Shown: positions 6,226-34,870 of the stretch, piece by piece
How positions within the stretch are numbered: position 1 is the stretch's first letter
Layout of the letters: the number at the start of each line of letters is the position of its first letter
DNA from: an uncultured Clostridia bacterium
GTDB taxonomy: Bacteria; Bacillota; Clostridia; TANB77; CAG-465
Assembly (NCBI GenBank): GCA_947626975.1
Contig: CANQUF010000011.1
Coordinates: 1 to 34,870 of the forward strand
Length of the DNA: 34,870 nucleotides
Reading direction: 5' to 3'
Notes under the pieces: generated by a model
What the model was told of the DNA's origin: nothing
What the model saw: the letters and a program-made list of their open reading frames with translations, nothing else
The model's database searches: none
Made by a program: the position numbers and the translations under genes

Positions 6226-6359
6226 AGTACCAGAGCAAGCAGTTGTTAAAGGCTTAAAACTTAATGGAGATACTTATTCAGGAGTAATAAGCCAAAGATG
6301 AAGCTGGAAAAGCATGGTGGGAAAAACACATTTACGAAGATGCATATAAACAACAATAA
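6218..6359 (+). pseudogene. Displaced C-terminus of the giant surface protein in the other two frames: VFKVPEQAVVKGLKLNGDTYSGVI | AKDEAGKAWWEKHIYEDAYKQQ*
   Basis: Frame from 6218 reads coherent protein to TGA at 6299-6301; frame from 6291 reads coherent protein to TAA at 6357-6359; removing one base near 6217 and one near 6290 restores a single ORF. Confidence 0.65.
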
Positions 6360-9189: not shown

Positions 9190-10608
9190 ATGAAAAAAAT
9201 AAAAAGGTTAAGCTTTATATTTTTAGCATTATTTATTGCCTTGGGATGTTTTAGTAAGATATATGGAGTGGATAATATAAATGTTACAACCATAAAACAA
9301 GGTGACGTTATATATTATGATAATTCTTATACAAAATGGGATAATGTAAAAATATATATTTTTAATAAAAGTGGTGATCATGTATTTAATTGGAAAGATG
9401 ATAAAGGTCAGATGCAGAAGATAGGTAATACTGATATTTGGAAGTTTACTGTAACTTCTGATATTGATGTTACATCTAAGAATTACGATGAAGTAATATT
9501 TCTTAAAGCTGATCAAAGTAGAAATGAAGATCAAACAATAGATTTAGGATATATTAGTTCATATTTTGCATATGTATCAGAAGGCGTAAATACAGAAAGA
9601 GAATATAAACAGATGGGATATTGGTATTTATATGATAAAACTGAATTAAAAGAGCTTTTAGAAGAATGTAAAAAGTATGAAGAAAAGTATTATACATCTG
9701 ATTCATGGGCAAAATTTAAAACTTCTATGGACGATGCACAAGATGTTTTAGATGGAGAACAAAAACTAGAATCTGTTAATGAAGATGGTTCTGGAGGGTA
9801 TAAATGTGATTATTTCTATAAATTAGAAGAATTACAAAAAGCAAATGATGAATTAGTTATAGATAAGGAAGTATTAAATAAAAAGATAAAAGACGCAAAT
9901 GAAAAGTTAAAAAATGCTGATAAATATACAGAAGATTCAATTGATAATTTAAAAAATGCTATTGATAAAGCACAAGATAAATATGATGATGATGCTTTAG
10001 AATTAGATGAATTAAAAGAGGAATTAACTAAATTAGATGATGCGATAAATAATTTGAAACCAAATAAAGATAAATTAAAGGAAAAACTAGATGAAGTAAA
10101 TGGCATTATAGATAATAAAGACTTAAAATATTACACTGATGATAGTGTTAACGCATTAAAAGATAAAGTAAATAGAGGAAATGAAGTATATAAAAATGAT
10201 GAAGCAACATTAGAAGAGGTAGAAAATGCTACTAATGATTTAGATGGTGGAATAAAAGGATTAGAGCTTAACAAAAAAATGCTTGAGGATTTATTAAATA
10301 GTACAAAAGATACTGATTTTGATAAGTATACAGATGAAACTGTAACTGCTCTTAAGAGTGCTATAAACAGTGCAGAAGAATTATTAAAAAATGGTGATAT
10401 TACATTAGATAAATTTAAAAATACACTAGAAAATTTAAACACTGCATTAAATGGATTAATTGAAAAACAAGGTGAGGTTGTTACTAATAATACACAAACA
10501 CCAAATACAGGTAGTAATATACTTATTGCAATTATTTTACTTTCTGTAGGAAGTATTGTACTACTAATAACATTTATTTATACTAAAAAAGCTCAAAAAA
10601 ATAATTAG
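9190..10608 (+). CDS. Cell-wall-anchored surface protein, copy 1 (CBM26-like + FIVAR-type repeats + xPxTG sorting signal)
   Basis: Signal peptide; VIYYDNSYTKWDNVKIYIFN...QTIDLGYIS pattern of CBM25/26 starch-binding modules; repeated YT(D/E)(D/E)(S/T)(I/V)..LK..I..A... helical repeats; TPNTGSNILIAIILLSVGSIVLLITFIYTKKAQKNN. Confidence 0.85.
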   Translation: MKKIKRLSFIFLALFIALGCFSKIYGVDNINVTTIKQGDVIYYDNSYTKWDNVKIYIFNKSGDHVFNWKDDKGQMQKIGNTDIWKFTVTSDIDVTSKNYDEVIFLKADQSRNEDQTIDLGYISSYFAYVSEGVNTEREYKQMGYWYLYDKTELKELLEECKKYEEKYYTSDSWAKFKTSMDDAQDVLDGEQKLESVNEDGSGGYKCDYFYKLEELQKANDELVIDKEVLNKKIKDANEKLKNADKYTEDSIDNLKNAIDKAQDKYDDDALELDELKEELTKLDDAINNLKPNKDKLKEKLDEVNGIIDNKDLKYYTDDSVNALKDKVNRGNEVYKNDEATLEEVENATNDLDGGIKGLELNKKMLEDLLNSTKDTDFDKYTDETVTALKSAINSAEELLKNGDITLDKFKNTLENLNTALNGLIEKQGEVVTNNTQTPNTGSNILIAIILLSVGSIVLLITFIYTKKAQKNN

Positions 10609-10635
10609 ATATTTGGTATATATAATAATAAGTAA

Positions 10636-10672
10636 AAAATGAGGTGCCTTGAAATATTAGGTACTTTATTTT
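10636..10672 (+). terminator. Terminator of copy 1
   Basis: AAAATGAGGTGCCT ... AGGTACTTTATTTT 14-bp stem with G-U pairs. Confidence 0.7.
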
Positions 10673-10690
10673 GATATTTAATATACAATA

Positions 10691-10921
10691 ATTATTTTGT
10701 TACAGTTCAGTAAGTGAAATCATTGATATAAAGGCAACTTTAAAATTTTATAAGAAAATATAAAAATATTAAATCTACTTTAAAACATTTATTTACTGAA
10801 TTGATAATTGATATATTTTATATTTTTAATTTAAAAATATTATTTTATAAAATCTATTAAATAAAGTTATATCAATAATTTAACTTAATAATATTTTCTT
10901 ACTGAACTGTAACATTATTTT
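10691..10921. mobile_element. MITE-like element 1 (element 10699-10913, 215 bp; TSD ATTATTTT at 10691-10698 and 10914-10921)
   Basis: 16-bp perfect TIRs GTTACAGTTCAGTAAG (10699-10714) / CTTACTGAACTGTAAC (10898-10913); imperfect further inverted repeat AAGTGAAATCATTGATATAA / TTATATCAATAATTTAACTT; exact 8-bp direct repeat flanks; no ORF. Confidence 0.8.
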
Positions 10922-10952
10922 ATCCCGAAGTGTAAAAAAATATATATTTTTG

Positions 10953-10981
10953 TTGAATATATTTTAATTATATGTTAATAT
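10953..10981 (+). promoter_or_regulatory. Promoter of surface-protein copy 2 (TTGAAT-N17-TAATAT, extended -10)
   Basis: Same spacing and sequence class as the other three copies. Confidence 0.6.
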
Positions 10982-11007
10982 TTTTATATAAAAAATGGAG
11001 GTTATAT

Positions 11008-12438
11008 ATGAAAAAATTAAAAAAGTTAAGTTTTATATTTTTAGCCATTGTAATTACTTTGTTAAGTTTTAATAAAGCATTTGCTGACGAAGAGCGAGGA
11101 GATATTGATGTTATTCCTGTAAAACCAGGAGATGTAGTATATTATAATAATGTAAATACAAACTGGAATAGTGTAAAAGTATATTTATTTAATGATAAAG
11201 AAGAATATGCATTTGTTTGGGAAAATGAAAAAGGTAAAATGACACAAATAGATAGTTCAGATATTTGGGAATATAAAATACCAGATGATATTGAAGAAAA
11301 TAAATATGATCATATTATTTTCTTAAAGGGAGATGGAACTAATAGTAATAATGAAAATCAAACTATTGATTTAGGATACCTTGGAGCAGGATATGCATAT
11401 ATATCTGAAGGTACTGATTCAAATTCTCAAAATAAACAAATTGGATATTGGTATTTGTATGATAAAACTGAATTAGCAAATCTTATAGAAGAATGTGAAA
11501 AATATGAAAGTAATAAAGATTATTATACTACTAAATCTTGGGCAGAATTTTCTGAAGCTTTAAATGATGCTAAAGAAGTTTTAAAGGGTGAACAAAAAGT
11601 AGAGTCTGTTGAAACAGGTGGATTTAAATGCGATTATTTTTATACTTTAAAAGGACTGGCAGAAAAAACTCTTAATTTAAATAAAGAAGCATTAAATAAA
11701 AAAATTCAAGAGGCTGAAGATTTAATAAACGATAAATATGATGACGATTCTACAAATGATTTAAAATCTGAATTACAAAATGCAAAAGATAAATTAAATA
11801 GTGATAGTATTGAATTAGATCAATTAGAAGAAGAATTACACAAATTAAATGAAAAAATAAGTAAAGAAAAATTAAAGCAAAAAATAGATGAAGCAACTGA
11901 TATCTTAAATGATGAAGATTCAAAGTATTATACTGATGATAGCATTAATTCATTAAAAGATAAAGTTAATGCTGGATCTAAAATTTATGAAGATGAAAAA
12001 GCTACTTTACAAGATGTAGAAGGAGCTACTAAAAATATAGATGATGCAATAAATGAATTAGAACTTAATAAAAAAATTCTTGAAGATTTAGTAAGTAAAG
12101 CAAATGAAATTGATTTTGATAAATATACAGATGAAACAGTAGAAGCTTTAAACTCAGCCAAAAAAGAAGCAGAAGAATTACTAAATAACCCAGATATTAC
12201 ACTTGATAATTTTAAAAGTAAAGTAAAAAATTTAAATAATGCTTTAGAAGGATTATTAGAAAAGCAAAATGAAGTTGTCATAGATTCTAATAATACTAGT
12301 GATACTAGTGATACTACTAATAATACTGAAGTACCAAATACAGGAAGTAGTATACTTCTTGCAATTATCTTACTTTCTGCAGGAGCAGTTTTATTACTTA
12401 CAACATCATTTATTTATCATAGAAAAAGAGTAAAATAA
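11008..12438 (+). CDS. Cell-wall-anchored surface protein, copy 2 (CBM26-like + FIVAR-type repeats + VPNTG sorting signal)
   Basis: Paralogous to copy 1; ATG at 11008 preceded by GGAGG; the ORF-track start at 10972 lies inside the predicted -35/-10 region. Confidence 0.85.
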   Translation: MKKLKKLSFIFLAIVITLLSFNKAFADEERGDIDVIPVKPGDVVYYNNVNTNWNSVKVYLFNDKEEYAFVWENEKGKMTQIDSSDIWEYKIPDDIEENKYDHIIFLKGDGTNSNNENQTIDLGYLGAGYAYISEGTDSNSQNKQIGYWYLYDKTELANLIEECEKYESNKDYYTTKSWAEFSEALNDAKEVLKGEQKVESVETGGFKCDYFYTLKGLAEKTLNLNKEALNKKIQEAEDLINDKYDDDSTNDLKSELQNAKDKLNSDSIELDQLEEELHKLNEKISKEKLKQKIDEATDILNDEDSKYYTDDSINSLKDKVNAGSKIYEDEKATLQDVEGATKNIDDAINELELNKKILEDLVSKANEIDFDKYTDETVEALNSAKKEAEELLNNPDITLDNFKSKVKNLNNALEGLLEKQNEVVIDSNNTSDTSDTTNNTEVPNTGSSILLAIILLSAGAVLLLTTSFIYHRKRVK

Positions 12439-12457
12439 AAGTTATATTAAAATAGTG

Positions 12458-12488
12458 TGAAGTACCTATAAATCAGGTACTTCATTTT
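12458..12488 (+). terminator. Terminator of copy 2
   Basis: TGAAGTACCT-ATAAATC-AGGTACTTCA then TTTT. Confidence 0.75.
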
Positions 12489-12595
12489 AAAATTTTTAAA
12501 ATATATTAATTAGTAAAAATTGTTAAAAATAGTATATTATTTTGTTTCAGTAATATTACAAAAATATTGTATAAAAATTACTTTTTGTCGAAAAA

Positions 12596-12656
12596 ACATA
12601 ATGTATATATTTTTATGTTGAACAAATAATAATTATATGATAATATTTCAATATAA
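12596..12656 (+). promoter_or_regulatory. Promoter region of copy 3: Spo0A-box-like TGTCGAA (12596-12602) and TTGAAC-N17-TAATAT (12628-12656)
   Basis: TTTTTGTCGAAAAA is a near-ideal 0A box; located 32 bp upstream of -35 start, as in copy 1 (33 bp). Confidence 0.6.
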
Positions 12657-12680
12657 GTTGAAAATTATGGAGGTCTTTTT

Positions 12681-14120
12681 ATGAATAGAATAAAAAAATT
12701 AAGTTTTATTTTTTTATCAGTTATAATTGCTATATCAAGCTTTACTAAAGTTAAAGGTGTAGAAAAAATATATGTTACAACTATAAAGCAAGGTGATGTT
12801 GTATATTATGATAACTCAATTACAAAATGGGATAATGTAAAGATATACCTTTTTGAGAGAAAAGAGGGTATTAGTGATACGAATGCTTTTACTTGGAATG
12901 ATGATAAGGGACAAATGAAAAAAATTGGTGATACAGATATATGGGAATATACTTTACCAACTGATATTACAAGTGATAAATATAACCATGTTATTTTTCT
13001 TAATGGAACAGAAGGTCCTCAGAATCAAACTATAGATTTAGGATATCTAGGAAAAGGTTATGCATATATATCTAAAGAAATATATAATAAAAATGATGAT
13101 TATAGTAAAAATGGTAAACAGATAGGATACTGGTATTTATATGATAAAACAGGACTTAGAAATCTACTAGACGAATGTAAAAAGTTGGAAGAAAAATATT
13201 ATACTTCTGAATCATGGGCAACATTTAAAACTTCTATGGAAGAAGCAGAAAAAGTTTTAAATAGTGAACAAAGAATAGAAGATGCTGATGATAAAGATGG
13301 GTATAAATGTAACTATTTCTATAAATTAGAAGGTTTAGAAAAGGTTAAAACTGAATTAGTAGTAGATAAAGAGATTTTAAATAATAAAATAAAAGAAACT
13401 CAAAATATAGATAAGGACAAATATACACCAGATAGTGTAAATAAATTAAATGAAGCAGTAAAGAATGCTCAAGGAAAATATAATGGAGAAGATCCTTTAA
13501 CAGTAGATGGATTAAAAGATGAATTATCTAAATTAGATGAAGCAATTAATAACTTAAAACCAAATAAAGATAAATTAAAAGAAAAAATAGACGAAGGAAA
13601 TGGCATTATAGATAATGAAGACTCTAAATATTATACTAATGATAGTGTAAACGCATTAAAAGATAAAGTAAAAAATGGAAATGAAGTATACAAAAATGAT
13701 AATGCAACATTAGCAGAAGTAGAAAAAGCTACTGATGAGATAGATGATACAATAAAAGGATTAGAGCTTAATAAAAAGATGCTTGAAGATTTAGTAAATA
13801 TGGCAAAAAATGCTGATTTTGATAAATATACAGATGAAACTGTAGAAACTCTTAAAGGTGCTATAAATGCTTCTCAAGATCTATTAGGAAGTGGTGAGAT
13901 TACACTAGAAAAATTTAAAAACTCAATAGAAAGCTTAAATTCTGCAATTAATGGATTAGTTGAAAAACAAGGTAATGTTAATGAAAATATTAATAATAAT
14001 ACACAAACACCAAGTACAGGTAGTAGCATACTTCTTGCAATTATTTTACTTTCAGTAGGATCTATTGTATTGCTAATTACATTTATTTATAGAAATAAAA
14101 GCATTAAGAGTAGAAGTTAA
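12681..14120 (+). CDS. Cell-wall-anchored surface protein, copy 3 (CBM26-like + FIVAR-type repeats + TPSTG sorting signal)
   Basis: Paralogous to copies 1, 2, 4; GGAGG RBS. Confidence 0.85.
   Translation: MNRIKKLSFIFLSVIIAISSFTKVKGVEKIYVTTIKQGDVVYYDNSITKWDNVKIYLFERKEGISDTNAFTWNDDKGQMKKIGDTDIWEYTLPTDITSDKYNHVIFLNGTEGPQNQTIDLGYLGKGYAYISKEIYNKNDDYSKNGKQIGYWYLYDKTGLRNLLDECKKLEEKYYTSESWATFKTSMEEAEKVLNSEQRIEDADDKDGYKCNYFYKLEGLEKVKTELVVDKEILNNKIKETQNIDKDKYTPDSVNKLNEAVKNAQGKYNGEDPLTVDGLKDELSKLDEAINNLKPNKDKLKEKIDEGNGIIDNEDSKYYTNDSVNALKDKVKNGNEVYKNDNATLAEVEKATDEIDDTIKGLELNKKMLEDLVNMAKNADFDKYTDETVETLKGAINASQDLLGSGEITLEKFKNSIESLNSAINGLVEKQGNVNENINNNTQTPSTGSSILLAIILLSVGSIVLLITFIYRNKSIKSRS
13362..14060 (+). 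repeat. ~699-bp near-identical direct repeat, first copy (partner at 15052-15750)
   Basis: Read side by side, three substitutions found near the 5' end and none seen in the remaining ~600 bp; flanking coding sequence is clearly more diverged. Confidence 0.9.
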
Positions 14121-14158
14121 ATAATTATTAATCTATATAGAATAGTTATATAAATAAA

Positions 14159-14194
14159 AAAATAAGGTGCCTAAAATATTAGGTGCTTTATTTT
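14159..14194 (+). terminator. Terminator of copy 3
   Basis: AATAAGGTGCCT ... AGGTGCTTTATTTT stem with G-U pairs. Confidence 0.65.
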
Positions 14195-14322
14195 ACTTTA
14201 AAAATTAAATTAGTAAAAAATGGTTAATAATTAGTAATAAAAATTTATATATCAATAATATTACAAAAATATTGCGTTAAAATTTCTTTTTGTAAAAAAA
14301 AGAAGATGCATATATTTTTTTG

Positions 14323-14351
14323 TTGAACAAATAATAATTATATGATAATAT
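14323..14351 (+). promoter_or_regulatory. Promoter of copy 4 (TTGAAC-N17-TAATAT, extended -10)
   Basis: Identical -35, spacer and -10 to copy 3; the 0A-box position reads TGTAAAA (14291-14297), i.e. degenerate. Confidence 0.6.
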
Positions 14352-14385
14352 TTCAATATAGATTGAAAATTATGGAGGTCTTTTT

Positions 14386-15813
14386 ATGAATAGAATAAAA
14401 AAATTAAGTTTTCTTTTTTTATCAGTTATAATTTTTATTACAAGTTTTTCAAAAATTTATGGTATAGAGGATATAAAACTTACAACTATAAAAAAAGGTG
14501 ATGTAATATATTATGATAATTCAAAAACAAAATGGGAAAATGTAAAAATATATCTATTTGAGAAAAAGGATGGTAGTGAAGATAGTGGTGCATTTGAATG
14601 GAATGATAACAAAGGTCAAATGAACAAAATAGATGATACTGACATATGGGAATATACTTTGCCAGATGATATTACAAGTAATAAATATAATCATGTTATT
14701 TTTACTAATAATGGTAAAAATGGTAATAATCAAACAATAGATTTAGGATATCTAGGTAAGGGGTATGCATATATATCTGAAGGTACTGATTCAAGTGATC
14801 AAAATAAACAAAAAGGTTATTGGTATTTATATGATAAAACAGAGCTTAGAAATCTATTAGACGAATGTAAAAAATTGGAAGAAAAATATTATACTTCTGA
14901 ATCATGGGCAACATTTAAAACTTCTATGGAAGAGGCACAATCTGTTTTAGATGGTGAGCAAAAAATAGAGTCTACTGATATTGAAGGGGTATATAAATGT
15001 GATTATTTCTATAAATTAGAAAATTTACAAACAGCAAAAGCTGATCTTAAAGTAGATAAAGAGATTTTAAATAATAAAATAAAAGAAACTCAAAGTATAG
15101 ATAAGGACAAATATACACCAGATACTGTAAATAAATTAAATGAAGCAGTAAAGAATGCCCAAGGAAAATATAATGGAGAAGATCCTTTAACAGTAGATGG
15201 ATTAAAAGATGAATTATCTAAATTAGATGAAGCAATTAATAACTTAAAACCAAATAAAGATAAATTAAAAGAAAAAATAGACGAAGGAAATGGCATTATA
15301 GATAATGAAGACTCTAAATATTATACTAATGATAGTGTAAACGCATTAAAAGATAAAGTAAAAAATGGAAATGAAGTATACAAAAATGATAATGCAACAT
15401 TAGCAGAAGTAGAAAAAGCTACTGATGAGATAGATGATACAATAAAAGGATTAGAGCTTAATAAAAAGATGCTTGAAGATTTAGTAAATATGGCAAAAAA
15501 TGCTGATTTTGATAAATATACAGATGAAACTGTAGAAACTCTTAAAGGTGCTATAAATGCTTCTCAAGATCTATTAGGAAGTGGTGAGATTACACTAGAA
15601 AAATTTAAAAACTCAATAGAAAGCTTAAATTCTGCAATTAATGGATTAGTTGAAAAACAAGGTAATGTTAATGAAAATATTAATAATAATACACAAACAC
15701 CAAGTACAGGTAGTAGCATACTTCTTGCAATTATTTTACTTTCAGTAGGAGCTATTGTATTATTAATTACATTTGTTTTTATCAAAAAAGGTCCTAAAAA
15801 AAATAAAAATTAA
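14386..15813 (+). CDS. Cell-wall-anchored surface protein, copy 4 (CBM26-like + FIVAR-type repeats + TPSTG sorting signal)
   Basis: Paralogous to copies 1-3. Confidence 0.85.
   Translation: MNRIKKLSFLFLSVIIFITSFSKIYGIEDIKLTTIKKGDVIYYDNSKTKWENVKIYLFEKKDGSEDSGAFEWNDNKGQMNKIDDTDIWEYTLPDDITSNKYNHVIFTNNGKNGNNQTIDLGYLGKGYAYISEGTDSSDQNKQKGYWYLYDKTELRNLLDECKKLEEKYYTSESWATFKTSMEEAQSVLDGEQKIESTDIEGVYKCDYFYKLENLQTAKADLKVDKEILNNKIKETQSIDKDKYTPDTVNKLNEAVKNAQGKYNGEDPLTVDGLKDELSKLDEAINNLKPNKDKLKEKIDEGNGIIDNEDSKYYTNDSVNALKDKVKNGNEVYKNDNATLAEVEKATDEIDDTIKGLELNKKMLEDLVNMAKNADFDKYTDETVETLKGAINASQDLLGSGEITLEKFKNSIESLNSAINGLVEKQGNVNENINNNTQTPSTGSSILLAIILLSVGAIVLLITFVFIKKGPKKNKN
15052..15750 (+). repeat. ~699-bp near-identical direct repeat, second copy (partner at 13362-14060)
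   Basis: As above. Confidence 0.9.
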
Positions 15814-23607: not shown

Positions 23608-25422
23608 ATGAAAAACTTAAGAAATGTCGCAATAATTGCCCATGTTGATCATGGAAAAACTACTCTAGTTGATTCACTTTTAAGACAAAGTGGAACTTTT
23701 AGAGAAAATGAACAAGTAGCTGAACGTGTAATGGATTCTAATGATATAGAAAGAGAAAGAGGAATAACAATATTATCTAAAAATACTGCTATACAATATA
23801 AAGATATAAAAATAAATATTGTTGATACACCAGGACATGCTGATTTTGGTGGAGAAGTTGAACGTGTACTTAAAATGGTAGATGGTGTATTATTAGTTGT
23901 AGACGCATTTGATGGCCCTATGCCACAAACAAGATTTGTACTTAGTAAAGCATTAGCACTAAATCTTGTACCAATTGTTGTATTAAATAAAATAGATAGA
24001 CCAGGAGCAAGACCAGAAGAAGTAGTAGATGAGGTATTAGAGTTATTTATGGATTTAAATGCTACAGATGAGCAATTAGATTTTAAAGTTGTATATGCTT
24101 CTGCGAAAAATGGATATGCTAAATTAAATATTGAAGATGAAGATAAAGACATGGAACCTTTATTTGAAACAATTGTTAATACAATTCCAGAACCTAGTGG
24201 AAGTAATGATGAGCCATTACAATTATTAGTAGCTAATATTGACTCTGATGAATATACAGGTAGAGTTGGAATTGGAAGAATTACAAGAGGTTCAATAAAA
24301 AATGGACAAGAAGTTGCATTATGCAAAAAAGATGGTAGTATTAAAAATATAAAAATTGGAAAGTTATATACATACAAAGGACTAAAAAGAGTAGAAACTG
24401 AAGTTGCAAATTGCGGTGATATAGTTGCAGTAAATGGAGTTGAAGGAATCAATATTGGTGAAACAATTGCTGATATACAAAAACCAGAAGCCGTTCCATT
24501 TGTTGATATTGATGAACCTACTGTATCTATGACATTTAGTGTAAATAATGGACCTTTTGCCGGAAAAGAAGGTAAATTTATAACATCAAGACATTTAAGA
24601 GATAGACTTTTTAAAGAACTAGAAACAAATGTTTCACTAAGAGTTGAAGAAACAGATAGTGCAGATAGCTTTAATGTATCAGGTAGAGGTGAATTACATT
24701 TATCTATATTAATTGAAAATATGAGAAGAGAGGGCTATGAGTTACTTGTGTCTAGACCAAAAGTTATATACAAAGTAATTGATGGAGTAAAATGTGAACC
24801 AATGGAACAAGTGACAATTGACGTACCAGAAGATTGCGTTGGAACTGTTATGCAAAAAATGGGATATAGAAAAGGTGAAATGACTAATATGTCACCTTCA
24901 CACTCAAATGCAGGTTATACAAGACTTGAATTTAAAATACCATCACGTGGACTTATTGGATTTAGAAATGAGTTTATGACTGATACTAAAGGTAATGGTA
25001 TAATGAATCATATTTTTGCAGGATATGAGAAAGATAAGGGTGAGATATCTTCAAGACAAAGAGGTGCAGTTATTGCATTTGAAACTGGTAAAGCAACAGG
25101 ATATGGATTATTTAATGCACAAGAAAGAGCTACACTATTTATTGGACCTGGTACTGAAGTTTATGAAGGAATGATTGTTGGAGAAAATTCTAGAAGTGAA
25201 GACTTAACTATTAATGTATGTAAAGAAAAACATTTGACTAATACAAGAGCTTCTGGTAGTGACGATGCACTAAAGCTTGTTCCACCTGTTAATATGTCTT
25301 TAGAGCAATCAATTGAATTCTTAAATGATGACGAACTAGTTGAGGTAACTCCTTTAAATATTAGACTAAGAAAGAAAATATTAGATCCTACAAAAAGATA
25401 TAGAGAAAGCAAAAAAAATTAA
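23608..25422 (+). CDS. typA: Translational GTPase TypA/BipA
   Basis: NVAIIAHVDHGKTTLVD, RERGITI, DTPGHADFGGEVERVL, LNKIDRPGARP and BipA C-terminal domain. Confidence 0.96.
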   Translation: MKNLRNVAIIAHVDHGKTTLVDSLLRQSGTFRENEQVAERVMDSNDIERERGITILSKNTAIQYKDIKINIVDTPGHADFGGEVERVLKMVDGVLLVVDAFDGPMPQTRFVLSKALALNLVPIVVLNKIDRPGARPEEVVDEVLELFMDLNATDEQLDFKVVYASAKNGYAKLNIEDEDKDMEPLFETIVNTIPEPSGSNDEPLQLLVANIDSDEYTGRVGIGRITRGSIKNGQEVALCKKDGSIKNIKIGKLYTYKGLKRVETEVANCGDIVAVNGVEGINIGETIADIQKPEAVPFVDIDEPTVSMTFSVNNGPFAGKEGKFITSRHLRDRLFKELETNVSLRVEETDSADSFNVSGRGELHLSILIENMRREGYELLVSRPKVIYKVIDGVKCEPMEQVTIDVPEDCVGTVMQKMGYRKGEMTNMSPSHSNAGYTRLEFKIPSRGLIGFRNEFMTDTKGNGIMNHIFAGYEKDKGEISSRQRGAVIAFETGKATGYGLFNAQERATLFIGPGTEVYEGMIVGENSRSEDLTINVCKEKHLTNTRASGSDDALKLVPPVNMSLEQSIEFLNDDELVEVTPLNIRLRKKILDPTKRYRESKKN

Positions 25423-25426
25423 TTAT

Positions 25427-25479
25427 AAAAAAAAGAACTACTAAATATTATATAATTTTATTTAGTGGTTCTTTTTTTT
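25427..25479 (+). terminator. Terminator of typA
   Basis: AAAAAAAAGAACTACTAAATA ... TATTTAGTGGTTCTTTTTTTT. Confidence 0.85.
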
Positions 25480-25537
25480 AATATTTTTAAGTATTTGTGT
25501 AGTTTGAAAATATTCTATATTTATCAAAATATAAATT

Positions 25538-25564
25538 ACAATAATCATTTTTTTTCATATAATA
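25538..25564 (+). promoter_or_regulatory. Sigma-K-like promoter candidate (AC-N16-CATATAATA) upstream of the collagen-like gene
   Basis: Matches AC-N16/17-CATANNNTA layout; AT-rich context lowers specificity. Confidence 0.35.
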
Positions 25565-25640
25565 TTATATATTACAATAAATAATATACAATTAATATAG
25601 ATAGTATATAATTTTGTAATAAATAGTAAAAGGGGGAAAA

Positions 25641-26321
<681 letters not shown>

Positions 26322-26393
26322 TTAATATATTCTAAAATAAAAAGATATTTAAAATATAAAATAAAAATGACTCTAAAAAATTATTTATAAAGG

Positions 26394-26424
26394 AATGAGT
26401 GAAGCTTTTTTCACTCATTTTTAT
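26394..26424 (+). terminator. Terminator of the collagen-like gene
   Basis: AATGAGTGAA-GCTTTT-TTCACTCATT + T-run. Confidence 0.8.
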
Positions 26425-26582
26425 CCTTTTAGGAAATTTACTACATATTTTGTATTTTTAATACTATTTTTGTAATATGAATAAATTTCCATGGAAAGTT
26501 AATTATATTTATTGCAATTTTTTTTTCTATATTATATAATTTAATTGTAATAATATAATTTGTTAAAGGGGTTGAATTTAAA

Positions 26583-29500
26583 ATGAAATATACACTAAAT
26601 AGTATTTTTAAAGAAGCTGATGAAAATTATAAAATAATAGAACAGACTAATCGACTACTAGAAACAACAGCGGATCTAAAAATACAAACTCATGCTGCAG
26701 GGCAATGGATTTTAGATAATATGTATATTATAGAAGAACAGTATGAAGATATAAAAGAAGATAAAAAGAGATTAAAAGGAAAGAAACTCCCTATTATAAA
26801 GACAAATGATGGTGAAAAATATATAACAATTTTTTTCTTAGCATACGAATTAATAGAAAAAAATACAGGATATGTTGACCAAAATTTAATTCTAAATTGT
26901 TTAAGAGAACATCAAAAATTATCATATTTAACATCCGAAGAGTTAAATTTATTTATGTTGATGTTAAAATTAGCATTACTTAAATTTATTGCAAGAATCT
27001 GTGAGACTATTGATAACTCTCAACTAAAAAAATTGGAAGTCGAACAGATACTTATATCAGAGTGTACTGATGAAAATTTGAAAAAAAGTTTAACAAATAA
27101 TTTTAAATTAAATATTAATTTTAGAGATTATATTTTAGATACAACAAAAATTAAAAGTACTAATACTGCTTTTGTTGAATATATGTCATATAGATTGAAA
27201 GAACTTGGAAAAAAAGGTGAAAAATATTTTTCAATCCTTACAGATGAAGCAGAGAAAATAGGCTTTACTATTGATGAAGCAATTGTAAAAGAGCATCTTG
27301 AAATTGCAAAATCAACAGATTATATGGGAAGAGCTATACTTGCTTTTAAGCAATTGCAAGGAATAAATTTTAGAGAGATTTTTGAAAAAGTAAATAAAAT
27401 TGATTTAACTTTAGCAGATGACTATACAGGGGAATTTGTGAAATGTGATTATAAAACAAAGACAAGATATCGTGAATATATTATAAAACTTGCAAAAAAA
27501 TATAATTTGTCTGAAATATATGTTGCTAAAAAGGCAGTAGAATGTTCTAAAAAGTATAAAAAACATGTTGGATTTTTTTTAATAGATGATGAAAAATGGT
27601 TACTAAAAAAAGCTTTAGGAAAGTCGTATATTAATAATGTAATATATAACAAAATAATTACTCCAATAAAACCATTTATATATATATCTTCAATTTTTAT
27701 ATTATCAATTTTAATCGCCTATGTTACTACATTTAAACTTTTGGTATTTGATAATATATATATAAAAACTATAGAGTTTATTCTTTCATTTATATTTTCA
27801 ATAGAGATAGTACAAAAGTTTATTAATTATATACTAAGAAAAATAGTACATCCAAAAATATTGCCAAGATTTGATTTTTCTAAATCTATTGATGAAAAAT
27901 ATCCTACATATATAGTTATGCCAACTATTATTTCTTCAGTAAATAAATTAGAAGAAATGATTAAAAAAATGGAAGTAACTTATCTTGCTAATCGCAGTGA
28001 TAATATATATTATATGTTACTTGGTGATTGTATTTCAAGCGATACACCAGATATTGAACTTGATAAAGATATATTAAATTATGCTAAGAAAAGGTTAGAT
28101 GAACTAAATAAAAAATATGTAGATAAACATATTCTGTTTAATTTTATATATCGTAAAAGAGTTTACTCAAAAGGTGAAAAATGCTACATGGGATATGAAA
28201 GAAAAAGAGGTGCTTTATCTGAATTTAATAAACTTATTTTAGGAAGACTTTCACAAGAGCAGATTAGTAAAAAGTTTAATATTATATATGATGATATTAT
28301 AAACGCTAAATATGCGATTACTTTAGATGAAGATAGTAAACTATCTTTAAATACGGCAAAGGATTTAGTGGGTATAATAGCACATCCTATAAATAGACCT
28401 ATACTTTCAAAAAATGGAAAAATTGTAAAAAAAGGCTATGGTATAATTCAACCATCTGTAGGACTTGATATTGAGTCTGCAAATAAATCAATATTTTCTA
28501 AAATTTTTGGTGGATTTGGTGGCTTAGATATTTATACTACTGCAATATCCGATGTTTATCAAGATGTTTTTGGTGAGGCTATTTTCTGTGGTAAGGGTAT
28601 ATACAATATAGAGTTATTTGATGATTTACTAAGTAAAGAAATTCCTGAGAATTTAGTATTATCACATGATTTGCTTGAAAGTTCATATATTAGAGCAGGT
28701 CTTGCTTCAGATATAGAATTACAAGATGATTTTCCAAGCAATTATATTGCATATATGAAAAGAAACCATAGATGGTATAGAGGAGATATGCAAATATTAC
28801 GTTGGTTAATAAGCCCAAAATCTAAAATTAATTTACTGTCTAAATGGAAAATATTTGATAATTTAAGACGACCATCACTTGATGTTTTTTTACTTTTAGC
28901 ATTAATATTATCACTTTTTTATACACCAGAAACTTTTGCAATAACTGCACTTATAGTTTTCTTTACAGTTAATTTTGGCGTATTTTTATCAATTATAGAT
29001 GTGTTATTGTTTGGACTAGAGAATCATACTAAAGAGGTGCAATATATACCAATTATTCATGGAATACAGGCAGATTTATTAAATATGTGTTATAATTTTG
29101 TACTTATTCCATATAAAGCATATATTTGCATAAATGCTTTTTCTCTGTCATTATATAGGATGCTTATATCACATAAAAAACTTTTACAATGGACTACAGG
29201 AGAGATACTTGAGAAAAGGTCAAAATCTAATTTAATGTATTATATTAAAAGTATGATTATAAATATTTTGGTAGGCATTTTCATTATAATAGTTCCTATA
29301 AGTAAAATAACAAAATTAGATGTATATATAATATTTAAAGACTTTATTGGTATGTCTATGATGATTGCCCCATTTCTTGCATATTTGTTAGGAAAAGACC
29401 ATTTATTTACAATTAAGTTAAAAAGAAAGATAAATCAAGATGATAAAGATGAAATTTTAGAAATTGCCAATAGAACTTGGAATTTCTTTGATAATATGAT

Positions 29501-32201
29501 GAATGAAACAAATAATTATTTGCCAACAGATAATTTTCAAGAGACAAGAAGATACAAAATTGTAAATAGAACTTCATCAACTAATATTGGATTTGCAATA
29601 CTTTCTATTATATGTGCATATGATTTGAAATTTATCTCATTAGAAGATACTATAAAAAGATTAAAAAATATTTTTAATACAATTGAAAAATTAGAAAAAT
29701 GGAATGGACATCTATATAATTGGTATAATATAAAAACATTAGAACCATTAAGACCTAGATTTATATCAACTGTAGATAGTGGTAATTTTGTTGCATCTCT
29801 TTATGTTGCAAAAGAGTTTTTAAATGAAATTTCTAATAATGTAAATATTAATTCAAAATTTACTAACATACATGAAAGCGACTTAAAATATTTAAGTGAT
29901 TATATTGTCCAATTAATAGATAATACTGATTTTACTGTGTTATACGATACTAGTAGAAATTTATTTTCTATTGGATATGCCCAGGAAAACGGTAAACTTG
30001 TTGATAGTTATTATGATATGTTAATGTCAGAGAATAGAACTACAAGTTTAATAGCTATTGCATCAAGGCAAATAACATCTAAGCATTGGTTTGCACTAGC
30101 AAGAAATTTAGTTAAAGTAGATGGATACAAAGGACTATTATCTTGGTCAGGAACAGCATTTGAATACTTTATGCCATATATATTTAATAAATCATATCCG
30201 CATACTTTGATTGATCAATCTTTGTTTTTTACTCAATATAGTCAAATTAAATATGCTAAACAAAATAATGTACCATGGGGAATATCTGAAGCTGCATATG
30301 CTGTTAAGGATGATTTATTAAATTATCAGTATAAAGCGTTTGGAATACCTTGGCTTGGACTTAAACGTGGATTAAATAATTATTTAGTTATCGCTCCATA
30401 TGCTTCAATTATAATGTTGCCATTTATACCTCAAAAAGTATGTAAAAATATAAAAAGATTGAAAAGATTAGGATTATATTCTTCATATGGCTTTTATGAT
30501 TCTATTGACTATACAAAAAATCATTTAGATGAAGGTGCTGAATATGAAGTAATAAAGACTTATATGGCACATCATCAAGGTATGATACTAGCTTCTATAA
30601 ATAATTATATAAATAATGGAATTATAAAAGAAAGATTTCATTCTAATCCTGATATTAAAGCTTGCGACATATTGCTAAAAGAAAGAGAAAGAATGAAAGC
30701 TAAAATTAAAAAGACTTTAAGAGATAAAAATAATTTATTCAAACAAAAAAATGTTGAAAAATATACTTCTCATGTAAACTGTATCTATACAGAGAAAAAG
30801 TTTGTTGATGAGAATAAAGATTTTAAGCAAGAGTTAAATATTGCACTTTTAAAAGGAGGAAATATATCTGAAATAATTACTAATACTGGTGCAAGCTATA
30901 TGAATTATAAAGGAAAAATATTAAATAAACAAAGATTCTCAGATATGCAATCAACAGGTAATTTTATATATCTTACAGATAAAGTCAGTGGACATAAATT
31001 TAGTGCTACTGATGGCGATATAACTAGTGTAAATAATAAAAATTCATATAAATGTATATGGACTAGTGGAACAAATAGAGTGGAAAACTATATAGAGGAT
31101 GAAAATTTAGAGATTACAACAACCACATTTTTAGCTCCTGAATATAACGCTGAAATAAAGAAAGTAAGTATGTATAATAATAGTAATATAAGAAGAGAAA
31201 TATTAATAAATACATATTTTGAACCTGCAATGACCGATTATATGACTAATGTTGTACATCCTTCATTTAGTAATCTTCAAATTGAGACATATTATGATGA
31301 CCAATTAGATATTTTGGTTGCAAGTAAAAGGAAGAAAAATGAGGATGACACCGATTTATATGTATACTCAAGATTAGTTGGAATTGATCTTGCAAAAGAT
31401 GTAGAAACAGAAAAACAGAAATTAGTTAAAAATCCTTTACAAGCATATGATATAGATATTGTTAAATATCCTCTTTGGCCTATACTATCATATAGAGCTA
31501 CAATAATACTAGATCCTTATGAAAGGCAAGAATTTTATTATATTATTGGCGCTACTGATACAAAGTATAAAATTTCTAATTCTGTAGTTAATTTAGACAT
31601 TGAAGGAATTAAAAATCAGTTTAAGCTTACAAGTGAACTTAATAGTGTTGTTGCAAGATATCTTAAATTAGAGCACGGTAAAGCTCAAATATATAATAAT
31701 ATAGTAAGAGATGTATTATTTAAAAAACACAAAGATAATTTAAATGCAGATAAATATTGGGGAAAATCTTTACCACAATCTTTACTTTGGAAATATTCAA
31801 TATCAGGAGATTTACCTATTATTCTTGTGTATGTAGAAAAAATTGAAGATGCAGGTATAATAAATGAATTAATAAATTTCATGGATTATATTAAAAATAG
31901 AAAGATTGATATTGATATTGTTATATTAATAGATGAACCTCAAAGACAAAATGGACCTGTATATATGTATCTTAAAACTAGACTTGATAAAACAGTATTT
32001 ATAGATAATACAAGAGGAAATATTTATTTAATAAATGTTAATATATTAAACAATACTGAAATTGATTTATTATCTTTTCTTGCAAGAAAGTTTATTAGAA
32101 GTGCTGATGAGTTTTTAACTGATTCTTCACAAGATGATGTTAATTTTTCAGATGAATTATCAAAGAAAGTTATAGAAAATAACAAAAATAAGGAGGAATA
32201 G
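26583..32201 (+). CDS. Cyclic beta-1,2-glucan synthase, N-terminal polypeptide (GT84-like transferase, TM segments, glycoamylase-like/GH189-type domain, first beta-glucan-binding sandwich domain)
   Basis: LKIQTHAAGQWILDNMYIIEEQ N-terminus of NdvB/ChvB family; ITLDEDSKL and KRNHRWYRGDMQILRW glycosyltransferase motifs; SGTAFEYFMPY...WGISEAAYAVKD...GIPWLGLKRGL of the glycoamylase-like domain; SGDLPIILVYV. Confidence 0.88.
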   Translation: MKYTLNSIFKEADENYKIIEQTNRLLETTADLKIQTHAAGQWILDNMYIIEEQYEDIKEDKKRLKGKKLPIIKTNDGEKYITIFFLAYELIEKNTGYVDQNLILNCLREHQKLSYLTSEELNLFMLMLKLALLKFIARICETIDNSQLKKLEVEQILISECTDENLKKSLTNNFKLNINFRDYILDTTKIKSTNTAFVEYMSYRLKELGKKGEKYFSILTDEAEKIGFTIDEAIVKEHLEIAKSTDYMGRAILAFKQLQGINFREIFEKVNKIDLTLADDYTGEFVKCDYKTKTRYREYIIKLAKKYNLSEIYVAKKAVECSKKYKKHVGFFLIDDEKWLLKKALGKSYINNVIYNKIITPIKPFIYISSIFILSILIAYVTTFKLLVFDNIYIKTIEFILSFIFSIEIVQKFINYILRKIVHPKILPRFDFSKSIDEKYPTYIVMPTIISSVNKLEEMIKKMEVTYLANRSDNIYYMLLGDCISSDTPDIELDKDILNYAKKRLDELNKKYVDKHILFNFIYRKRVYSKGEKCYMGYERKRGALSEFNKLILGRLSQEQISKKFNIIYDDIINAKYAITLDEDSKLSLNTAKDLVGIIAHPINRPILSKNGKIVKKGYGIIQPSVGLDIESANKSIFSKIFGGFGGLDIYTTAISDVYQDVFGEAIFCGKGIYNIELFDDLLSKEIPENLVLSHDLLESSYIRAGLASDIELQDDFPSNYIAYMKRNHRWYRGDMQILRWLISPKSKINLLSKWKIFDNLRRPSLDVFLLLALILSLFYTPETFAITALIVFFTVNFGVFLSIIDVLLFGLENHTKEVQYIPIIHGIQADLLNMCYNFVLIPYKAYICINAFSLSLYRMLISHKKLLQWTTGEILEKRSKSNLMYYIKSMIINILVGIFIIIVPISKITKLDVYIIFKDFIGMSMMIAPFLAYLLGKDHLFTIKLKRKINQDDKDEILEIANRTWNFFDNMMNETNNYLPTDNFQETRRYKIVNRTSSTNIGFAILSIICAYDLKFISLEDTIKRLKNIFNTIEKLEKWNGHLYNWYNIKTLEPLRPRFISTVDSGNFVASLYVAKEFLNEISNNVNINSKFTNIHESDLKYLSDYIVQLIDNTDFTVLYDTSRNLFSIGYAQENGKLVDSYYDMLMSENRTTSLIAIASRQITSKHWFALARNLVKVDGYKGLLSWSGTAFEYFMPYIFNKSYPHTLIDQSLFFTQYSQIKYAKQNNVPWGISEAAYAVKDDLLNYQYKAFGIPWLGLKRGLNNYLVIAPYASIIMLPFIPQKVCKNIKRLKRLGLYSSYGFYDSIDYTKNHLDEGAEYEVIKTYMAHHQGMILASINNYINNGIIKERFHSNPDIKACDILLKERERMKAKIKKTLRDKNNLFKQKNVEKYTSHVNCIYTEKKFVDENKDFKQELNIALLKGGNISEIITNTGASYMNYKGKILNKQRFSDMQSTGNFIYLTDKVSGHKFSATDGDITSVNNKNSYKCIWTSGTNRVENYIEDENLEITTTTFLAPEYNAEIKKVSMYNNSNIRREILINTYFEPAMTDYMTNVVHPSFSNLQIETYYDDQLDILVASKRKKNEDDTDLYVYSRLVGIDLAKDVETEKQKLVKNPLQAYDIDIVKYPLWPILSYRATIILDPYERQEFYYIIGATDTKYKISNSVVNLDIEGIKNQFKLTSELNSVVARYLKLEHGKAQIYNNIVRDVLFKKHKDNLNADKYWGKSLPQSLLWKYSISGDLPIILVYVEKIEDAGIINELINFMDYIKNRKIDIDIVILIDEPQRQNGPVYMYLKTRLDKTVFIDNTRGNIYLINVNILNNTEIDLLSFLARKFIRSADEFLTDSSQDDVNFSDELSKKVIENNKNKEE

Positions 32202-32207
32202 ACTCAA

Positions 32208-34259
32208 ATGAAAATAGGAAATACATCCAATTATATTGCTTTTAATTCCTATGGTGGATTTACAAAGAGTAAGGATGAATATCATATTTTAAATACTAAA
32301 ACTCCATTACCTTGGTGTAATGTAATGGCTAATGAAAATTTTGGTACCATAATATCTAGTTATGGTACCGTATATACATATTTTAAAAATAGTAGAGAAT
32401 ATAAAATTACAGATTGGTGTAATGATTGGATAAATTTTACACCAGGTGAAATATTTACAGGAATATTTGAAAAAGATTATAACTTAATTTATGGATTTGG
32501 ATATAGTGTAGTTGTTGAAGAAAATGAGTATATAAAAAAATCAATGAACATATTTATTCCAAAGGATGATACTATTAAAATTCAACAGATAAATTTAGAG
32601 AATATATATGGTGAAGAAAAAGAATTGGAAATAACATATAAAATGGAAGTAGCACTTGGGGTTGCTCAAGAGACTAATAAAGAATATATAATTTCTAGAA
32701 TTAAAAATAATATTTTGGAACTTCAAAATCCTTATAGTCTAGAATTTTCGAATTGTACAGTGTTTGTAATGGTAATTGGCAATGATGATGATAATGTTTC
32801 ATATTCTTTTGATGCTGAAAATGCAACTACTAAAATTAAGATTAAAATACCAGCGTATAGTAAAATTTCATTTAGTATAATAGTTGGTGGAACTGATAAA
32901 GGTGAAGAATATATAAATTATATATATGATAAATATTCTAAAAGTAATGCTATAACTAAAGAATTTAATAAAACTAAAAAATATTGGAGAGAATTAGTAG
33001 TAAGAAATTCAAATATAGATGACGAGTATATTAATATAATGTATAGTGGTTGGTTACTTTATCAAACAATTGTATGTAGACTATACGCCAAATCAGGATT
33101 TTATCAATCAGGTGGTGCTATTGGTTTTAGAGATCAATTACAAGATTCGTTAGCTTTAATTTCATCAAAACCTGAATTTACACGAAAGCAAATAATTCTA
33201 AATGCTAGTAAGCAATTTGAAAAGGGAGATGTACTGCATTGGTGGCATGAACATAATGGAGCTGGAATTAGGACATATTTTTCAGATGATTATCTTTGGC
33301 TTGCTTATGTTTTATCTGAGTATATATCAAAAACTTCTGATTATTCAATTTTAGATATAAGGACTAATTATTTAGAAGATAAACATATGGGAAATAAACG
33401 TGAATTATATGATGTATTTCATTCTATACCAAAAGATGACAGCATATATGAACATGCTAAAAAAGCTATATTATATAGTTTGTCAAGAAAAAGCCCTAAA
33501 AACGGACTTCTTGATATTGGAGACGGTGACTGGAATGATGGATTTAGTAATATACGTGGACAGTCAGTATGGCTTACATTTTTCATGATGAATATTCTTG
33601 ATAGATTTAAAGATATTGCAAATTATATGAAAGATTTTGATATGGTTAAAATTTGTCAAAGGGAAAGACATATTTTAAAATATAGTATAATATCTAATTG
33701 TTGGGATACTGATCATTTTGTAAGGGCCTTTTTTGAAAATGGAGAAATTTTAGGAGCATATTCAAATAATGAATGTAAAATTGATTTAATTTCACAAGCA
33801 TGGGCAGTAATTTCAATGATAAATGATCTAGACGTTAAATATGAATTAAATACATGTATTCAAACTGCTAATAAATATTTAGTAGATAAAGAAAATATGA
33901 TTGTAAAATTATTATATCCACCTTTTGATAAACCTAAGAATAATCCTGGGTATATAAAAGCATATATTCCTGGGATAAGAGAAAATGGGGGACAGTATAC
34001 GCATGCTGCTACTTGGCTTGCAAAAGCATATTTTGAATTAGGTAAAAAAGATGAAGCAATAGAAATACTTAAATATATCAATCCAATATATCATAGTGAT
34101 ACAAAAGAAAAAGCAGATAGATATATGGTAGAACCATATGTAGTAGCTGCTGATATATATTCTAATCCTGAACATATAGGAAGAGGAGGGTGGACTTGGT
34201 ATACTGGTTCATCTGCTTGGAACTTTAAAATAATAGAAGATTATTTGGATAAAAAATAA
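32208..34259 (+). CDS. GH94 phosphorylase-type polypeptide corresponding to the C-terminal part of cyclic beta-1,2-glucan synthase
   Basis: NSYGGFTKSKDEYHI...TPLPWCNVMANENFGTIISSYGTVYTYFKNSREYKITDW and catalytic GDGDWNDGF; own AGGAGG RBS (32192-32197) overlapping the end of the preceding ORF. Confidence 0.88.
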   Translation: MKIGNTSNYIAFNSYGGFTKSKDEYHILNTKTPLPWCNVMANENFGTIISSYGTVYTYFKNSREYKITDWCNDWINFTPGEIFTGIFEKDYNLIYGFGYSVVVEENEYIKKSMNIFIPKDDTIKIQQINLENIYGEEKELEITYKMEVALGVAQETNKEYIISRIKNNILELQNPYSLEFSNCTVFVMVIGNDDDNVSYSFDAENATTKIKIKIPAYSKISFSIIVGGTDKGEEYINYIYDKYSKSNAITKEFNKTKKYWRELVVRNSNIDDEYINIMYSGWLLYQTIVCRLYAKSGFYQSGGAIGFRDQLQDSLALISSKPEFTRKQIILNASKQFEKGDVLHWWHEHNGAGIRTYFSDDYLWLAYVLSEYISKTSDYSILDIRTNYLEDKHMGNKRELYDVFHSIPKDDSIYEHAKKAILYSLSRKSPKNGLLDIGDGDWNDGFSNIRGQSVWLTFFMMNILDRFKDIANYMKDFDMVKICQRERHILKYSIISNCWDTDHFVRAFFENGEILGAYSNNECKIDLISQAWAVISMINDLDVKYELNTCIQTANKYLVDKENMIVKLLYPPFDKPKNNPGYIKAYIPGIRENGGQYTHAATWLAKAYFELGKKDEAIEILKYINPIYHSDTKEKADRYMVEPYVVAADIYSNPEHIGRGGWTWYTGSSAWNFKIIEDYLDKK

Positions 34260-34298
34260 TAATATATGATATATAATTTATAATTTAATTATATGTGG

Positions 34299-34495
34299 CG
34301 TTACAAGTTACTATTCAGACTACCTTGATCAGAAAATGCAAAATTAATTAAAATTTAATGTGTATTATACATAATATTGAATTTGTAATACAATTTTAAA
34401 ATATTATATTTAATTTAGAAATATAGTAATATTAAGGTTAATAATCATTTTTTATAAATTTTATAATCTTCTAGTCTGAATAGTAACCGTTACAA
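34299..34495. mobile_element. MITE-like element 2 (element 34307-34487, 181 bp; TSD CGTTACAA at 34299-34306 and 34488-34495)
   Basis: 16-bp perfect TIRs GTTACTATTCAGACTA (34307-34322) / TAGTCTGAATAGTAAC (34472-34487); exact 8-bp direct repeats outside; no ORF. Confidence 0.83.
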
Positions 34496-34526
34496 AAATA
34501 AAAAAATGTAAAAATGTAAAAAAATA

Positions 34527-34555
34527 TTGACTTTTTATAAATTTTAATGTATAAT
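34527..34555 (+). promoter_or_regulatory. Strong promoter TTGACT-N17-TATAAT for the RNA candidate
   Basis: -35 34527-34532, -10 34550-34555. Confidence 0.7.
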
Positions 34556-34561
34556 ATTGCA

Positions 34562-34800
34562 TAGAGTTTAAGTTATATATTTTTTTAATAAAAATTAAGT
34601 TTAATTATTATAGTTATTTATTATGTTTAATAAATGGAATTAGAGGGGAGATATACCATTTTATTTGCACTTATCCCTTAGGCGGAATGTCTTATTGTTT
34701 TAAGATATATCGGTTCAACTCCGTTTGAGTGCGCATAGTCATTTTTATTAACCTCCCGTTTAATGGCATATACTAAAAGTATATGTCATTAAATTTTTTA
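34562..34800 (+). ncRNA. Structured non-coding RNA candidate (family unknown), with terminator at its 3' end
   Basis: Promoter upstream, no ORF, nested pairings GGGAG/CTCCC (34646-34650 with 34753-34757), GCACT/AGTGC (34667-34671 with 34728-34732), ATGTCTTA/TAAGATAT hairpin (34687-34708), CGG-TTCAACT-CCG T-loop-like hairpin (34711-34723), terminator at 34761-34799. Locally more GC-rich than surrounding intergenic DNA. Confidence 0.65.
34761..34799 (+). terminator. Terminator of the RNA candidate
   Basis: TAATGGCATATAC-TAAAA-GTATATGTCATTA then T6. Confidence 0.85.
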
Positions 34801-34870
34801 TATAATAGGAAAGTCATACCGAAAAAATTCAAAAAAGTGTAGGTTAACATAATAGTACTATACTAATAAA

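Follow-up and report, generated by a model that had tools for sequence, protein, structure and literature searches.

The locus and its setting

We analysed an entire contig of 34,870 nucleotides (C11, hereafter the window) from a small, AT-rich genome assembled to 1.15 Mb in 39 contigs with a completeness of 94.7%. Close to its end lies a candidate RNA gene that is flanked on both sides by mobile or repeated DNA (Table 1). The contig stops 70 bases past the terminator of this candidate, so the DNA further downstream cannot be read directly.

Table 1. Coordinates of the features at the candidate RNA locus, numbered along the window.
Feature	Position	Strand	Basis or remark
MITE target-site duplication, left copy CGTTACAA (8 bp)	34299..34306	.	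sequence, copy comparison
MITE-like element, 181 bp, with 16-bp perfect terminal inverted repeats GTTACTATTCAGACTA/TAGTCTGAATAGTAAC	34307..34487	.	copy comparison; outside the RNA
MITE target-site duplication, right copy CGTTACAA (8 bp)	34488..34495	.	sequence, copy comparison
Promoter-like TTGACT-17-TATAAT	34527..34555	+	consensus match at 11/12 positions
AT-rich 5' part of the predicted transcript, 11% GC	34562..34643	+	start inferred from the promoter
GC-rich structured core, ~115 nt; closing helix GGGAG 34646-34650 / CTCCC 34753-34757	34644..34758	+	predicted fold, GC
Inner domain; helix GCACT 34667-34671 / AGTGC 34728-34732	34667..34732	+	sequence, predicted fold
Long hairpin ATGTCTTA 34687-34694 / TAAGATAT 34701-34708	34687..34708	+	sequence, predicted fold
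T-loop-like hairpin CGG-TTCAACT-CCG	34711..34723	+	ensemble probability about 0.23
Intrinsic terminator, 17-bp stem then TTTTTT	34758..34800	+	-17.5 kcal/mol
Multi-copy repeat, from its start to the contig end	34794..34870	.	first bases within the terminator T-tract

The upstream MITE-like element recurs in the genome in at least eight other copies, some full and some partial: near-identical ones lie on contigs C2, C3 (two), C7, C10 (two) and C31 and partial ones on C35 and C4; a diverged sequence is present in genome G001. Prior to this insertion, some 80 bases would have separated the stop codon of the upstream GH94-type gene from the RNA promoter. On the downstream side, the 77 bases of the repeat recur on contigs C23, C9 and C6 and, in diverged form, on C5, giving five copies in the genome. 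Because these shared bases stand at contig ends, the end of the window probably reflects an assembly break at the repeat. By eye, the copies on C6 and C23 start at terminator-like T-tracts, as does the one in the window, and the C6 copy holds an 84-aa ORF. An identification of the repeat as an IS605/TnpB left end was unsupported by searches of Pfam, NCBIfam, plasmids and the PDB.

Trigger factor often comes after the GH94-type gene in relatives, either directly or one gene later; in this genome it is located on contig C12, behind another gene. The query used for this purpose was approximate (about the first 55 of its 80 residues came from L023) and served to locate the gene only, which was then confirmed in the ORF list. 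Given the MITE upstream, the repeat downstream and trigger factor on a separate contig, the RNA locus is a rearranged place whose flanks were reshuffled by the two elements.

Elsewhere in the window, a tandem array of four paralogous genes (9190-15813) encodes proteins of about 470-490 aa that begin with a signal peptide-like segment and have a hydrophobic C-terminus; long stretches of the last two are nearly identical. A collagen-like protein with Gly-X-Y repeats (25641-26321) gave weak NCBIfam matches to collagen-like adhesins.

Promoter, terminator and coding content

The preliminary description had reported a promoter with a 17-base spacer, some 235 nt without an ORF and a strong terminator, and all three were recovered: the promoter-like and terminator sequences are present as listed in Table 1, and no ORF of at least 30 aa was detected on the + strand of 34562-34800. 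The promoter score is the highest among the 100 promoter-like sites in the region 24000-34870, where it is shared with one minus-strand site and where 92 sites are expected by chance; a lone good promoter match is not rare in such AT-rich DNA. Only two terminators were detected in the same region, one of them that of the candidate RNA. A promoter and a terminator of its own (both as consensus matches only) thereby enclose a non-coding stretch, which is the arrangement of a stand-alone small RNA gene.

Composition and predicted fold

GC content has reportedly been used in earlier work to seek structured RNAs in intergenic DNA. We compared the 69 nt at 34666-34734 with windows of the same length and obtained 42% GC, versus a mean of 17% for intergenic windows. 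This is the highest value of any intergenic 69-nt window of the contig, and it exceeds about 99% of coding windows. The intergenic stretches next in rank (11-80 and 6279-6349) appear to be remnants of coding sequence or the end of a gene. At 6226-6340, a GC-rich coding-like stretch directly follows the stop codon of a gene of 2014 aa and is possibly its frameshifted or decayed C-terminal part. For the candidate RNA, composition is a stronger signal than the promoter match.

The entire transcript, including the terminator hairpin, folds with a z-score of -3.76, its energy being equalled by 1 of 200 shuffles; part of this value arises because the terminator hairpin is included. For the core alone the z-score is a modest -2.63 (4 of 200 shuffles equally good), and the AT-rich first 82 nt have no structure beyond that of shuffles (z +1.0). 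The closing helix, the inner helix and the ATGTCTTA/TAAGATAT hairpin have ensemble probabilities of 0.90-1.0, and the minimum-energy fold is a long hairpin with a large internal bubble. A GC-enriched core with nested pairings had been described from the outset, and all four of its elements were located in the sequence.

The fourth element, the T-loop-like hairpin, held up in part. Its sequence is real, and the predicted ensemble contains it at a frequency of only about 23% (0.22-0.24 for the stem pairs), because the CGG and CCG arms can instead extend the long hairpin (CGGA/TCCG); the predicted fold therefore allows it as a possibility and does not firmly include it, even though enforcing it costs only 0.4 kcal/mol. 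Two TTCRANY hairpins closed by three Watson-Crick pairs were observed in the window, where about three are expected by chance, and such a hairpin occurred in 0.8% of shuffles of the candidate transcript.

Searches for known families and for homologs

We scanned the window with Rfam and found no matching family at the gathering threshold and chance-level matches only at E-values up to 10, in agreement with the initial failure to recognise a known family. The suggestion of a raiA-type RNA was not supported: the model RF03072 has no match in the window, and it gave nothing in the genome, the control genomes being equally silent. A bacterial Y RNA (YrlA) was rejected, since no Y RNA model appeared among the Rfam matches at E-values up to 10 and the gene of its Ro-family partner TROVE (PF05731) was absent from 45 of 45 genomes (this one and 44 relatives; one control genome was positive). 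The same holds for 6S RNA (RF00013), whose model does not match the candidate RNA and whose own candidate lies elsewhere in the genome. This 6S candidate, at C2:19501-19659, scores 43.5 bits against the Rfam cut-off of 46.4; because 6S scores are low throughout the genus, the 6S RNA of the genus appears to have diverged. The tmRNA was found in the genome.

Homologs of the candidate RNA were then sought in several collections. A blastn search of 40 genomes returned short AT-rich matches only, and DNA similarity searches of plasmids and phages gave AT-rich or chance matches only. A single-sequence covariance model (R1) yielded nothing credible in 391 genomes of the order, nor did it when run under laxer filters on 28 genomes from the genus (27 others besides this one). 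Three weak matches in the genus were a tRNA-like sequence on G010, which was the best other match, an apparent coding region and a stretch of 46 bases that aligned with no more than the closing helix. Because R1 was built from a single sequence, it could overlook relatives that have diverged. We also inspected 1.5-kb flanks of homologs of the upstream gene, where nothing resembled the candidate RNA. Since no homolog was found in the genomes, plasmids and phages searched, the RNA is apparently limited to this species or very diverged.

This outcome is what one would expect of a chance arrangement, in which non-functional intergenic DNA or the remnant of a foreign element happens to have incidental GC content and folding. 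The z-score of the core, only -2.6, and the mobile or repeated DNA on either side are also consistent with it; against it, the promoter, the 42% GC core and the strong terminator coincide once in the window, and only 1 of 200 shuffles reaches the energy of the whole transcript. We consider a chance arrangement unlikely, while ranking it first among the alternatives.

Likeness to tRNA

The preliminary description had stated that there is no tRNA cloverleaf. That is slightly overstated, because a defective cloverleaf can be traced through the inner domain. In this drawing, a 7-bp acceptor (GCACTTA/TGAGTGC) is followed by a D-like arm with GG within its loop (TCC-CTTAGGC-GGA, 34674-34686), by the 8-bp long hairpin with its 6-nt loop at the place of the anticodon arm and by a T-arm with one mismatch (ATCGG-TTCAACT-CCGTT). 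Its defects are a linker 8-9 of 0 nt, no 7-nt anticodon loop and no CCA. Equally good drawings were obtained from 1.6% of shuffles that preserve the T-arm, a statistic that is post hoc. The tRNA model RF00005 (cut-off 29 bits) finds 23 tRNAs above the cut-off in this genome and does not list the locus even at E-values up to 10, and ARAGORN reports no tRNA there. With both programs silent and the linker, the anticodon loop and CCA lacking, a true tRNA is ruled out.

Two further searches touch on this likeness. We looked for the pattern TTAGGCGGA plus GGTTCAANTCC within 20-36 nt in 264 Gb of genomes and obtained 16 matches, 7 of them tRNA-Cys genes and the rest unrelated sequences; running R1 over the 16 gave nothing credible. 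On the minus strand, the inner domain gave a weak match of 19.1 bits to Plastid-ycf2, a model with a consensus that resembles the complement of a plastid tRNA. The candidate RNA is possibly tRNA-derived or tRNA-mimicking, on evidence that is suggestive and post hoc.

These results bear on a second alternative, namely that the locus is a decayed tRNA, or a fragment of one borne by a mobile element, that has kept a T-arm, part of a D-loop and an acceptor pairing and has no function of its own. It would account for the four arms being drawable in order, with few shuffles doing as well, for the tRNA-Cys genes among the pattern matches, for the minus-strand match of a tRNA-complement-like model and for the tRNA-like sequence on G010 as the top other match of R1. 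It sits poorly with the silence of RF00005 and ARAGORN at the locus, with the missing nucleotides 8-9 and CCA and with a 6-nt anticodon-like loop on an 8-bp stem; its supporting statistics are post hoc, and it offers no account of why an outer helix, a fitted promoter and a terminator are there. We judge tRNA decay to be improbable.

A possible leader cut off from its gene

The order of promoter, structured RNA and terminator is also that of a cis-acting leader (a riboswitch or attenuator), here one that would have been cut off from its downstream gene by insertion of the repeat, and riboswitches can have tRNA-like folds, for example the yjdF aptamer (PMC9142559). A leader attenuator had been suggested at the outset, which the findings do not support. 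Repeat DNA runs from the terminator T-tract to the contig end, and a search for antiterminator pairings gave none stronger than chance: for the 5' arm of the terminator, the most stable pairing with upstream sequence reaches -6.9 kcal/mol, weaker than in 90% of shuffles. Moreover, the closing helix lies immediately next to the terminator and leaves it free to form; trigger factor, the commonest following gene in relatives, sits elsewhere in this genome; and neither yjdF nor other riboswitch models have a match. A severed leader is distinctly doubtful.

Interpretation

On the basis of the anatomy of the locus, its GC content and the lack of an Rfam match, we read it as an RNA gene of no catalogued family. 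Our best reading, to which we assign a probability of about 0.55, is a stand-alone small non-coding RNA that would act in trans, be stabilised by its fold and probably be bound by protein. Such an RNA, of about 235 nt, would start from a sigma-A-type promoter and stop at an intrinsic terminator, both its own. In its GC-rich domain of about 115 nt, the closing helix would lead through a large internal loop to a branched distal domain, and the latter may form a tRNA-like elbow in which the T-loop packs against the GG-containing loop. The protein bound would perhaps be a tRNA-handling one. Transcription, the exact fold, action in trans and the protein-binding role are what we infer from the features described above.

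The original proposal of a promoter-to-terminator RNA gene without an identified family is thus upheld by anatomy, composition and the Rfam result, and weakened by the lack of any homolog found. The locus is a fair candidate for an orphan non-coding RNA gene, and its novelty lies solely in belonging to no catalogued family. If it is transcribed and relatives are found, it would represent a new family of RNAs from small-genome uncultured bacteria, and its tRNA-like look would point to a testable protein partner. A bolder version, which we consider very unlikely, would make it a member of a new, lineage-restricted class of free-standing, tRNA-mimicking RNAs, which carry a reduced tRNA-like fold set on a terminal helix and, having no Ro partner, act on proteins that handle tRNA.

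Comparison with known RNAs

ModT (the raiA motif), conserved across more than 2,500 species, folds into 8 helices with 2 pseudoknots (PMC11706538). The candidate RNA resembles it as a stand-alone structured RNA of about 200 nt from Clostridia-type bacteria and differs in having 3-4 helices, no relative found and no RF03072 match. With 6S RNA it shares the long hairpin with a large internal bubble of its minimum-energy fold. The likeness to a tRNA or tRNA pseudogene lies in the T-arm sequence, the order of the arms and the GG in the D-like loop, whereas the candidate RNA is unscored by RF00005 and ARAGORN and lacks the 8-9 linker, the 7-nt anticodon loop and CCA.

In the yjdF aptamer, the T-loop and D-loop-like loops form a tRNA-like fold outside tRNA (PMC9142559). 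The candidate RNA differs from this riboswitch in having no match to its model and no visible downstream gene to regulate, while T-loop and D-loop-like loops can be drawn in it as well. In the bacterial Y RNA YrlA, both ends of the molecule form a terminal helix, beyond which come an internal loop and, at the far end, a tRNA-like module, and the architecture of the candidate RNA can be drawn in the same way.
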